Shown here: positions 8,485-58,354 of the stretch, in pieces
Numbering within the stretch: the first letter of the stretch is position 1
Layout: each line of letters opens with the position of its first letter
NCBI GenBank assembly: GCA_022402465.1
Contig: JAKRSH010000022.1
Coordinates: forward strand, 124,001 to 188,000
Source: Leptospiraceae bacterium
Lineage (GTDB): Bacteria > Spirochaetota > Leptospiria > Leptospirales > Leptospiraceae
Reading direction: 5' to 3'
Length of the DNA: 64,000 bases
Notes under the pieces: generated by a model
The model's database searches: none
The model's input: only the letters and a program-made list of their open reading frames with translations
Told to the model about the DNA's origin: nothing
Program-made: the position numbers and the translations under genes

Positions 8485-8490
8485 CTTTCA

Positions 8491-8573
8491 CACTCCTTTG
8501 CTAACTAACATTAACTTTATCAAAGTTAGTCGGACATTCCATGTCCGGCTGCAAAGGGGAGAAGCAGCCCGAC
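8491..8573 (-). promoter_or_regulatory. Structured 5' leader of flaB with GGA hairpin (candidate CsrA site)
   Basis: Reading along the minus-strand mRNA, GTCGG at 8573-8569 can enclose the rest. GGCTGC/GCAGCC arms pair at 8569-8564 and 8552-8547. Next comes the hairpin CGGACAT-GGA-ATGTCCG (8547-8531) with GGA as the loop, then AACTTT/AAAGTT arms around ATC, then the ribosome site AAAGGAG. The GGA loop within ACATGGAATGT resembles the known CsrA preference for a GGA in a hairpin loop with flanking ACA/TGT. The structure is seen in the sequence; CsrA binding is inference. Confidence 0.4.
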
Positions 8574-8616
8574 ATAGAATCATGCGCCAAAGGATTTATT
8601 CTATTTAATATTCCCC

Positions 8617-8646
8617 TTTATACCATAACAGTACATAATACTTCAA
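8617..8646 (-). promoter_or_regulatory. Candidate sigma-70-type promoter for flaB
   Basis: On the minus strand TTGAAG (8646-8641) is 18 bases from TATAAA (8622-8617). A start near 8610 would give a leader of about 125 bases that contains all three hairpins. A second -35-like TTGACT lies at 8655-8650. The region is AT-rich, so chance similarity is possible. Confidence 0.35.
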
Positions 8647-8760: not shown

Positions 8761-8798
8761 AAACAAAAAGGCAAAGCTATCCTAAGGATAGTTTTGCC
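8761..8798 (-). terminator. Rho-independent terminator of the upstream flaB gene
   Basis: On the minus strand a 13-base arm GGCAAAACTATCC pairs with GGATAGCTTTGCC around a TTA loop with one mismatch, followed by TTTTTGTTTT. It lies about 60 bases after the flaB stop at 8857 and separates the two flagellin genes. Confidence 0.8.
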
Positions 8799-8814
8799 TA
8801 AGTTTTTTTTGGAG

Positions 8815-8856: not shown

Positions 8857-9702
8857 TTATCGAAGTAGAGATAATACGGACTGTGGTCTAACGTTAGCTT
8901 GAGCAAGCATCGCAGTTCCAGATTGAACTAGAATTTGATTCTTGGTAAATGCTACCGTTTCTTCAGCCATATCAGCGTCTCTGATTCTTGATTCAGATGC
9001 TTGAGTATTTTCATAAGCATTCATGAGACCTTTAGTCGCATGCTCTAGCCTATTGAAATACGCACCCAAGTTAGCTCTTTGTTTATTTATTTTGTAAAGA
9101 GCCTCATCCAAAGTTCCGATTGCTTCGTTAGCGAAATCAGCTGTGGAAAGAGTAATTAGAGAGTTGTCTTCTTTTTTCAAGGAGAGTGATCTAGCTGTCA
9201 TTGTTGCGATAAATACTCGCTCTCTTTGGTGCTGGTTTGGTCCAATGTGAAACCACATAGAAGCAGAACGAGAACCTCGAGCGAAATCACCTTGCAATAG
9301 ATTCATTTTATTGAATTCTGCTTGAGAAGCGATTCTATCTACCTCATCAACGAGCTGAGAAACCTCAACTTGGATCATTTGACGATCTTCTTGAGTATAA
9401 ATACCGTTAGAAGATTGGATCGCAAGTACTCTAACTCTTTGGATGATATCATTCATTTCTTGAATGTATCCTTCAGTAGTCTGAATCATAGACATACCGT
9501 CCTCAGCGTTTCTTTCAGCTTGTCTTAAGCCTTTAACCTGAGTTCTCATTTTTTCAGAAACGGCTAAGCCAGATGCATCATCTCCGGCGCGGTTAATACG
9601 CATCCCAGAAGATAATACTTCCATGTTTTTTGAAACTTCGTCGTTTTGAAACTTTAGAACTCGGTGCGAGTTGATCGCAGATAAGTTGTGGTTGATGATC
9701 AT
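8857..9702 (-). CDS. flaB: FlaB flagellin, filament core protein (upstream copy)
   Basis: 281 residues. It begins [20 protein letters not shown], keeps [20 protein letters not shown] and QTTEGY, and ends with [19 protein letters not shown] and a terminal LLR. It is a close paralogue of the next gene and has the same short architecture. Filament core subunits of this type assemble in the periplasm and are sheathed by FlaA and other proteins. The ribosome site AAGGAGGAAAC is strong. The 5' leader carries several GGA motifs and a sigma-28-like promoter, so expression may differ from the downstream copy. I cannot assign FlaB1-4 numbering by eye. Confidence 0.95.
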
Positions 9703-9758
9703 GGTTTCCTCCTTGAAACTTGATCAACATTCAGGCTGCATCCTTGCTTCCTGTATGT
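9703..9758 (-). promoter_or_regulatory. flaB leader with repeated GGA motifs (candidate CsrA sites)
   Basis: On the mRNA strand three GGA sites occur close together: ACATACAGGAA (9758-9748), the small hairpin GCA-AGGA-TGC (9747-9738) and the ribosome site CAAGGAGGAAACC (9715-9703). The first matches the start of the CsrA consensus (RUACARGGAUGU) at AUACAGGA. A site overlapping the Shine-Dalgarno plus upstream sites is the layout of known CsrA-repressed flagellin leaders. The binding itself is inference. Confidence 0.4.
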
Positions 9759-9796
9759 CTGTCTGGTGTGTTGGTCTATTTCTTTTTACATTAAAG

Positions 9797-56828: not shown

Positions 56829-58354
56829 GGGAAGATAAGATTGATCATTTTTTCAGTAGCTTTCATTGCAGCCACGACCTGGTCCGAATCAACTCCTATT
56901 GTTCTAAGAGGGATAGGATCGTCTTTTCGTTTCCAAGTGATCACTGCTTCAACGAGTGCATCTGTTCTTCCACCAGGTGGTATGCGCACCTCATAATCTT
57001 CCAAAGAAGGCATCTCTATCCCAATTTCCTTATTGATCTTCCGAAGTGCCTTCATAAAGGCATCATAGCCGCCATCCCCGCTTCCATCAGCTGAATAGTC
57101 TTTGCCTTTGTATTGAATATGAAGTTTTGCACTCGGTGTTGCCCCTAGACCTGATTCGACAATGCATGTTATGATTTTAAAACTAATACTTTCTGACTTT
57201 CCAGATATATCCGCAATAATAAAAGGTATATCTTCGGGAGTTACTATCTTACTTTGATCACCTAATTCAATGATACGGTCAAGAACTTTCTTTTCCATCT
57301 CTGGACTTAGAACCAATCCTTGTCGTTTTAAATTTTCTGTAAGGCTTGCCTTACCTGCGAGCTTACCTAAAGCATAACTTCGAGTTCTTCCAAATCGTTC
57401 TGGAAGAATTGGATTGGCATAGAGATTAGCCTTCTTATCTCCATCGGCGTGGATTCCAGCAGTTTGGGTAAAAACATCCTCGCCCACAATAGGACGGTTA
57501 GCAGAAATTCGTTTTCCACTGAAAACTTCCACTAATCTGCTAGCATTTGTAATTTCCTTTTCTACTATCCCTGTCTTTACTCCAAGCTTATCATGAAGTG
57601 CTGTAATTACAGCTTCTAAAGGAGAGTTGCCAGCACGCTCACCAAGCCCATTTACAGAGACATGAATGCCTTTTGCACCAGACTGAACGGCAACCAGGCA
57701 GTTAGCAACCGCTAGATCATAATCATTATGCCCATGAAATTCTAAATGCTGTTCGGGGTATCTCTGAAGAATACTATCAATTCCTACTCTGGTTTCATCT
57801 GGCGATAGAACTCCTAAGGTATCTGGCAGGAAGAGATATTGGATAGGTTCTTTTTGCAAATGCCCAACTAAATCAAGCACATAGCCTGAACTGTTGCGAA
57901 AACCATTAGACCAATCTTCTAAATATACATTTACTCTAAATCCTTGTTTGGTGGCGAGTTGAATAACTTCAGAGACTTCTTTAAAATGTTCAGCTGGAGA
58001 TTTACGAAGTTGTTTTTCTAAATGAAGCAAAGATCCTTTGGTCAATAAATTAAGAGTTCGTACCCCAGTCTCTTTCATCCAATCAACTGTCTTACCACTA
58101 TCCACAAAGCCTAAAATTTCTATCCTATCTGTTAAATTTTCACCAGCCGCCCAGTCCATAATCTTTCGAACGGATTCTAACTCACCACGTGAGACTCTGG
58201 CGGATGCAATTTCAACACGGTGGACATTCAACTTCTGTAAAAGAAATTTGGCAATGTTCATTTTCTCTTCACTAGAGAAACTTACACCCTGTGTCTGCTC
58301 TCCATCACGAAGAGTGACATCTAAAACTTGTATGGAATCTTGCATTCTGTTCAT
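56825..58354 (-). CDS. cimA: (R)-citramalate synthase
   Basis: 509 residues. Condenses pyruvate and acetyl-CoA to citramalate, the first step of the pyruvate route to isoleucine used in Leptospira. R16, D17, L81, L104, Y144, E146 and T179 fall at exactly the numbers I know for the L. interrogans enzyme, where Leu81, Leu104 and Tyr144 form the hydrophobic pyruvate pocket; this separates it from leuA. The catalytic HGHND is at FHGHNDYDLAV. A C-terminal isoleucine-sensing domain follows about residue 390. It overlaps both neighbours by 4 bases. Confidence 0.93.
   Translation of the reverse strand: MNRMQDSIQVLDVTLRDGEQTQGVSFSSEEKMNIAKFLLQKLNVHRVEIASARVSRGELESVRKIMDWAAGENLTDRIEILGFVDSGKTVDWMKETGVRTLNLLTKGSLLHLEKQLRKSPAEHFKEVSEVIQLATKQGFRVNVYLEDWSNGFRNSSGYVLDLVGHLQKEPIQYLFLPDTLGVLSPDETRVGIDSILQRYPEQHLEFHGHNDYDLAVANCLVAVQSGAKGIHVSVNGLGERAGNSPLEAVITALHDKLGVKTGIVEKEITNASRLVEVFSGKRISANRPIVGEDVFTQTAGIHADGDKKANLYANPILPERFGRTRSYALGKLAGKASLTENLKRQGLVLSPEMEKKVLDRIIELGDQSKIVTPEDIPFIIADISGKSESISFKIITCIVESGLGATPSAKLHIQYKGKDYSADGSGDGGYDAFMKALRKINKEIGIEMPSLEDYEVRIPPGGRTDALVEAVITWKRKDDPIPLRTIGVDSDQVVAAMKATEKMINLIFP

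Follow-up and report, generated by a model that had tools for sequence, protein, structure and literature searches.

The flaB2 locus

We analyzed a 64,000-nucleotide stretch of the genome of a Leptospiraceae bacterium (GenBank assembly GCA_022402465.1, contig JAKRSH010000022.1, positions 124,001 to 188,000 of the forward strand; hereafter the window) and concentrated on the leader RNA of one of its flagellin genes, flaB2. The window contains a tandem pair of flagellin genes on its minus strand, flaB1 at 9702-8857 and flaB2 at 8484-7633. The flaB2 open reading frame starts with an ATG at 8484-8482 and encodes a flagellin core protein of 283 amino acids that is 70% identical to the product of the adjoining flaB1 and 77% identical to its ortholog in genome G002. 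A terminator-like stem followed by a T-rich tract (8769-8799, minus strand) separates the two genes; it was read in the sequence and also recovered in a terminator scan, which found no terminator inside the flaB2 leader. With this strong stem between the genes, flaB2 probably has its own promoter. A preliminary description of the locus had placed three hairpins between a candidate promoter and the start codon, and by eye we found a candidate -35 hexamer, TTGAAG (8641-8646, minus strand), 18 bases before a candidate -10 hexamer, TATAAA (8617-8622, minus strand), identified by consensus match only. This placement predicts a transcript start near 8610 and a leader of about 125 bases. A consensus promoter scanner did not list the pair, because it accepts only a second hexamer that ends in T.

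Predicted structure of the flaB2 leader

Inverted repeats occupy about 8485-8610 on the minus strand, all ahead of the ATG, and every repeat that had been reported there is present in the letters. These are the outer arms GUCGG (8573-8569) and CCGAC (8533-8529), the GCUGC/GCAGC arms, a hairpin with a GGA loop (P2, CGGACAU-GGA-AUGUCCG, 8531-8547, with an ACAU-GGA-AUGU core and the GGA at 8540-8538), and a third hairpin (P3, 8505-8529) that has the loop GAU, without GGA, and a probability of 0.95 to 0.99 for most transcript starts. The free fold of the 141-nucleotide leader reached -43.6 kcal/mol compared with -30.4 kcal/mol for shuffles (z of -3.63, with 1 of 200 shuffles as good), and the span originally described, folded alone, gave a z of -2.39, with 7 of 200 shuffles as good. 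A perfect stem of at least 7 base pairs with GGA in a loop of 3 to 8 nucleotides arose in 0.28% of 5,000 dinucleotide shuffles of the 123-nucleotide leader. The repeats are real and, by these models, beyond chance, and the predicted fold differs from the nested arrangement first described.

Enforcing the outer GUCGG/CCGAC arms together with two inner hairpins gave only -25.0 kcal/mol, and enforcing the GGA hairpin gave -34.5 kcal/mol; the predicted pairing probability of the outer arms in the leader is 0.0000. In the free fold, a long hairpin (hairpin A, AUUCUAUGUC.GGCUGC / GCAGCC.GACAUGGAAU, 8536-8580, minus strand) pairs AUUCUAUGUC (8580-8571) with GACAUGGAAU (8545-8536) around GGCUGC/GCAGCC and thereby pairs the GGA. 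In the full-length leader, the loop GGA that had been proposed to be exposed is predicted to be paired: the GGA hairpin has a probability of about 0.0001 between -118 and the ATG, and the fold that buries it is also predicted at 30°C. When prefixes of the growing transcript were folded, hairpin A formed before the downstream arm was complete. The middle arm, CCGGACA, has two alternative partners, the upstream arm in hairpin A and the downstream arm in the GGA hairpin.

The switch between these two hairpins was predicted to be unusually sharp with respect to the transcript 5′ end. Hairpin A had a probability of 1.000 for all tried starts at 8578 or further upstream, which bury the upstream AUGGA that the leader contains, and the GGA hairpin had a probability of 0.995 to 1.000 for starts from 8572 to 8550. 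The span in the preliminary description ends at 8573, which removes most of the competing arm of hairpin A, and this span to the ATG, folded alone, forms the GGA hairpin, closed by CCUUUGC/GCAAAGG.

The Shine-Dalgarno sequence, CAAAGGAG (8493-8500, minus strand), is overlapped by an ANGGA motif, and its AAGGA is, judging from the letters, the likely contact for the regulator CsrA. Two upstream 7-mers are exactly complementary to the Shine-Dalgarno region, an outcome seen in 0.2% of shuffles, and the G002 leader has one such 7-mer and one 6-mer (0.9% of shuffles). The first complement, UCCUUUG (8588-8594, minus strand), matches CAAAGGA and has a predicted pairing probability of 0.993 at 37°C in a leader that starts at 8610; the second, CCUUUGC (8551-8557, minus strand), overlaps the loop and the 3′ side of the stem in hairpin A. 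With a start at 8610, the Shine-Dalgarno sequence was predicted to be 83 to 85% paired from 15 to 42°C (0.15 to 0.17 unpaired, about 17% at 37°C), and with a start at 8591, which cuts into the first complement, its unpaired fraction was 0.50 to 0.65 over the same range (about 60% at 37°C). By these predictions, the accessibility of the start site thus also depends on the 5′ end.

Comparison with the G002 ortholog

In a comparison of eight genomes of the family, one of them of this genus, only G002 had a flaB2 ortholog (L006) with this type of leader. We aligned hairpin A of the two leaders by hand, using the invariant CCGGACA and GUCGG as anchors; MAFFT did not align their upstream arms to each other. 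The inner pairs of hairpin A are kept in G002 (8 of 8) and a ninth pair is lost, with two two-sided changes (A-U to C-G and C-G to A-U) and a one-sided change (U-G to U-A). These changes fall on the letters of the loop GGA, UGGA in the window being GAUA in G002, and the GGA is not conserved. The five outward pairs of helix A are all kept, for which the chance expectation of 0.4% is a guide only, given the hand-chosen anchors. The arms of the GGA hairpin are kept as well, with six pairs, one one-sided G-C/G-U change, and the loop GAUAA. Applied to these two sequences, the covariation check proposed in the preliminary description showed one one-sided change in the GGA-hairpin arms and two two-sided changes in the competing hairpin A. 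The middle arm retains both partners in both species, which is the pattern expected of a switch.

Flagellin leader classes in the Spirochaetota

We collected 106 loci and excluded 10 of them (partial or hook-associated matches, one with its start cut off). The resulting 96 flagellin leaders, 17 from the eight family genomes and 79 from public contigs, were classed by the letters around the Shine-Dalgarno sequence into class I (46 leaders), class II (41), and other (9); the loci are not independent, since several come from one genome. The flaB1 leader of the window belongs to class I and the flaB2 leader to class II. The claim that the two flaB leaders differ in architecture and yet both show GGA holds, with the GGA in each at the Shine-Dalgarno sequence, and the difference recurs as two classes across the phylum. 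In class I, 42 of 46 leaders close the Shine-Dalgarno sequence in a hairpin of the type GUUUC-AAGGAG-GAAAC (3.0 in shuffles), and 24 of the 46 have an upstream GGA hairpin by a rule-based definition (13.9 in shuffles). Among class II leaders, 34 of 41, with the flaB2 leader counted, have an upstream hairpin with a GGA loop (9.0 in shuffles), and 22 have a Shine-Dalgarno hairpin (1.7 in shuffles). The GGA of these upstream hairpins lies at -33 to -39 in 30 of the 34 leaders and at -56 in the flaB2 leader.

The flaB1 leader itself (9702-9790, minus strand) contains a CAGG..GC-AAGGAU-GC..CCUG hairpin and the Shine-Dalgarno hairpin GUUUC-AAGGAG-GAAAC, with a sigma-28-like CCGATAT upstream. Two other flaB genes of the same genome (L003 and L004) both have upstream GGA hexaloops, GCC-ACGGAA-GGC inside GAAACA/UGUUUC and UUUUGG-ACGGAU-CCAAAA.

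We built a covariance model, R1, from 30 class II leaders. R1 placed the flaB2 leader as the best site in the 64 kb of the window (19.4 bits, E value of 4.8e-4), and in its own genome the leader was the sole place with an E value up to 1 (0.0295), a weak match. The G002 leader scored 45.9 bits, but it is a training row of the model. Run with stricter filters against 296 genomes from the phylum, R1 hit 80, some perhaps genomes already used, and missed the flaB2 leader. R1 aligns its P3 GGA hairpin with the third hairpin (8529-8505) of the flaB2 leader, which lacks GGA; in this genome, the motif thus seems to be missing from its usual hairpin through loss, and the GGA first noticed lies one hairpin upstream. 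A second, weak R1 match in the window (57011-57048, minus strand; 12.0 bits, E value of 0.097) has an AAGGAA loop before an ATG.

In 30 class II leaders out of the 41, paired cells made up 85.3% of P3 and the Shine-Dalgarno hairpin versus 75.8% in shuffles, and two-sided cells numbered 42 versus 19.2 (0 of 500 shuffles each). The pairs with two-sided changes (5 versus 4.7) and the further pair types (12 versus 14.0) showed no excess over shuffles in this set, and the two innermost pairs split largely by subclass and so may represent few events. The class IIa consensus fold had two-sided changes in 10 of 32 pairs. The long class IIb leaders gave a weak consensus (-6.74 kcal/mol, two-sided changes in 3 of 18 pairs), and we therefore claim no detailed structure for class IIb. 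At the gathering score, Rfam 15 matched only a tRNA in the window, and its best weak matches around the flaB2 leader had E values of 0.33 or worse; neither the flagellin leaders at 16 loci nor, at E values up to 1, one long leader could be placed in an Rfam family. In four leaders (L038, L060, L036, and L047), a Shine-Dalgarno complement 9 to 11 bases long lies about 140-150 bases ahead of the Shine-Dalgarno sequence, and the outer letters of these complements follow its flank (GUAU with AUAC, GUUC with GAAC), which hints that a closing helix covaries.

A boxA-like element in related flagellin leaders

Two class II subclasses, IIa and IIb (33 leaders), were defined by motifs other than boxA. 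The boxA core UCUUUGAAA occurred at most 400 bases upstream of the ATG in 31 of these 33 leaders, and the remaining two (L027 and L078) have it, by eye, with one change. It was found in 0 of 46 class I leaders, 0 of 9 other leaders, and 4 of 1,406 control segments, each 400 bases long and taken from these loci, and neither flaB2 nor its G002 ortholog has it in the preceding 400 bases. Among the best 30 R1 loci of the 296-genome search, all 30 lead a flagellin-like frame, 28 of them with the core 150 to 226 bases upstream. The class IIa and IIb leaders (within L027-L089, for example L036 and L071) carry the boxA of their own rRNA operons (rRNA loci L120 and L121) about 150-243 bases before the ATG, in class IIb beside an apparent sigma-28 promoter. 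The Rfam searches gave no match for these leaders. RNAalifold also pairs the boxA UCUUUG with the Shine-Dalgarno CAAAGG, in letters that are nearly all invariant.

The sequence GGUUCUUUGAAAACUGAGUAGU, which has the same letters as the flagellin-leader core, precedes 16S rRNA in the two of twelve genomes in which 16S was found. The 13-mer TTCTTTGAAAACT, which resembles the boxA of rRNA operons, including the Bacillus subtilis form, occurs at 17 places across 9 of 11 genomes. Of these, 5 precede 16S starts, 4 precede flagellin frames, 2 lie in a repeated stretch, and 6 lie elsewhere. The single sites in G000, the genome of the window, and in G002 do not exceed the reversed control. The repeated stretch (L169 and L177, genome G008) occurs in two copies, looks noncoding, and starts with the 13-mer, after which the copies share about 60 bases; it is followed by neither rRNA nor flagellin.

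As in these spirochaete leaders, boxA is found outside rRNA genes in Nus factor targets such as Escherichia coli suhB (PMC5725501). Unlike the suhB type, the spirochaete boxA stands at the above distance upstream of a flagellin ATG, and the flaB2 leader has none. Our search of the available literature on boxA with flagellin, NusB, antitermination, or spirochetes, and on covarying structured flagellin RNA in Spirochaetes, returned no report of boxA in flagellin leaders.

CsrA and FliW

Genome G000 has a fliW match (97273-97632) and a csrA match (97656-97811) on contig C19, 23 bases apart. Its CsrA has L4, R6, and R44. Among the eight family genomes, six have csrA and seven have fliW. The flagellin content and the order of fliW and csrA mark the genome as probably Leptospira-like.

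In Leptospira biflexa, deletion of csrA raises flaB2 and flaB3 RNA and overexpression lowers both (PMC8668096). CsrA of that species bound a 22-nucleotide flaB3 probe through its GGA, and binding is shown for flaB3 alone in the text available (PMC8668096). The L. biflexa flaB2 and flaB3 leaders belong to the same gene family as the flaB2 leader of the window and, like it, have GGA at the Shine-Dalgarno sequence, the L. biflexa flaB2 site being ACACAAAGGAGT (PMC8668096). Competing hairpins and Shine-Dalgarno complements such as those predicted here are not described in the available text of that report (PMC8668096).

Control by CsrA and FliW through two GGA sites is established for Campylobacter jejuni flaA (PMC4894983) and B. 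subtilis hag (PMC8523840). The C. jejuni flaA transcript resembles the flaB2 leader in being a flagellin mRNA with CsrA and FliW, with one GGA over the ribosome-binding site and a second upstream (PMC4894983). However, the flaA leader is 45 nucleotides long with two loops that display ANGGA, as confirmed by footprinting (PMC4894983), whereas the flaB2 leader is about 125 nucleotides long, its upstream GGA is predicted to be buried, and its Shine-Dalgarno sequence is predicted to be held in long-range pairing. The hag leader likewise has two CsrA sites in a flagellin leader, BS1 and BS2, with FliW as the antagonist (PMC8523840), but in the flaB2 leader the upstream site is not predicted to be open.

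Interpretation of the flaB2 leader

The presence of csrA and fliW, the response of L. biflexa to csrA, and the known leaders with two GGA sites lead us to regard the flaB2 leader as a divergent example of CsrA/FliW control. With modest confidence, we favor the view that it is a flagellin leader of this type in which upstream RNA hides the Shine-Dalgarno sequence, the GGA of which is the likelier CsrA site. We count toward this view the fold, the 5′-end scan, the two-sided changes in helix A, the 7-mers complementary to the Shine-Dalgarno sequence, csrA and fliW, the R1 match, and the L. biflexa response. The post-transcriptional control proposed in the preliminary description is likely, given the adjacent csrA and fliW and the rise of L. 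biflexa flaB2 and flaB3 upon csrA deletion (PMC8668096). The leader is real, structured, and ordinary in kind; its unusual feature is the GGA first noticed, which lacks conservation and which the predicted fold hides.

The flaB2 leader, as an RNA of about 125 nucleotides, would keep its own Shine-Dalgarno sequence closed until it is opened. By prediction, hairpin A forms earliest and most favorably and would enclose the loop GGA. Once the Shine-Dalgarno sequence is open, CsrA may bind chiefly to its GGA and block ribosomes, and FliW, freed upon flagellin export, would take CsrA away. The loop GGA could serve CsrA as an additional contact only if the transcript is shortened or the leader is switched.

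Several observations weigh against this interpretation. The 5′ start and the folds are predictions, and the action of CsrA on the flaB2 leader and the switch are inferred. The best predicted fold of the G002 leader is the other state (-47.0 versus -40.5 kcal/mol with helix A), and the ortholog evidence comes from that one sequence. The flaB2 leader has no small hairpin of at least four pairs with the Shine-Dalgarno GGA in its loop, a feature typical of its relatives, and their P3 GGA hexaloop is absent from it, the loop there being GAU. Finally, overexpression of csrA in Leptospira interrogans raises flaB1, flaB2, and flaB4, which is the opposite sign (PMC8668096).

We considered that the GGA triloop is displayed after all as a high-affinity CsrA site and forms, with the Shine-Dalgarno GGA, a two-site lock as in hag and C. 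jejuni flaA. Upstream GGA hairpins are usual in class II leaders, so perfect a hairpin is rare by chance, and the GGA hairpin dominates when the RNA starts at 8572 or slightly later. However, its near-zero probability in the long leader, the absence of GGA at this place in G002, and its displaced position relative to most class II leaders make this arrangement unlikely. Slightly less plausible still is a true two-state RNA in which the invariant CCGGACA picks either the upstream partner, hiding the GGA while complement 1 holds the Shine-Dalgarno sequence, or the downstream partner, showing the GGA while complement 2 holds it; CsrA and FliW or a shortened 5′ end would shift the balance, and the leader would be the Leptospira branch of a phylum-wide leader whose other members carry an rRNA-type boxA with a CUUUG that can also pair with the Shine-Dalgarno sequence. 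We are a shade more doubtful of plain occlusion of the Shine-Dalgarno sequence, which would give a minor flagellin a low, constant rate without a regulator of its own. The stable pairing of the Shine-Dalgarno sequence in a leader from 8610 fits it, as does the standing of FlaB2 as a minor flagellin in L. interrogans by the copy numbers quoted (PMC8668096), but L. biflexa flaB2 responds to csrA (PMC8668096) and both competing arms are conserved in G002.

That the hairpins have no function is very improbable. There are only two orthologous sequences, and the strongest fold differs between them, but the z of the full leader, the paired changes in helix A, the Shine-Dalgarno complementarity, and the homology to a phylum-wide leader class speak for a function. 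An RNA thermometer, in which warmth opens the Shine-Dalgarno sequence, has the closing helix in its favor; its predicted opening, however, changes little from 15 to 42°C with either start, and we give this explanation almost no credence.

Our preferred reading, a divergent CsrA/FliW-type leader, bears on control that is known for leptospiral flagellins as RNA amounts and short-RNA binding (PMC8668096). The flaB2 leader points to distinct RNA architectures that restrain flaB1 and flaB2, in a context of four flagellins at very different amounts, and the 5′ end of the flaB2 mRNA, to within a few bases, is predicted to decide whether the upstream GGA is a site at all. The boxA in the flagellin leaders of many Spirochaetota, if functional, would tie flagellin synthesis to the Nus antitermination machinery, and if the two-state reading with its boxA relatives were true, flagellin mRNA would be shielded from termination while CsrA silences it.
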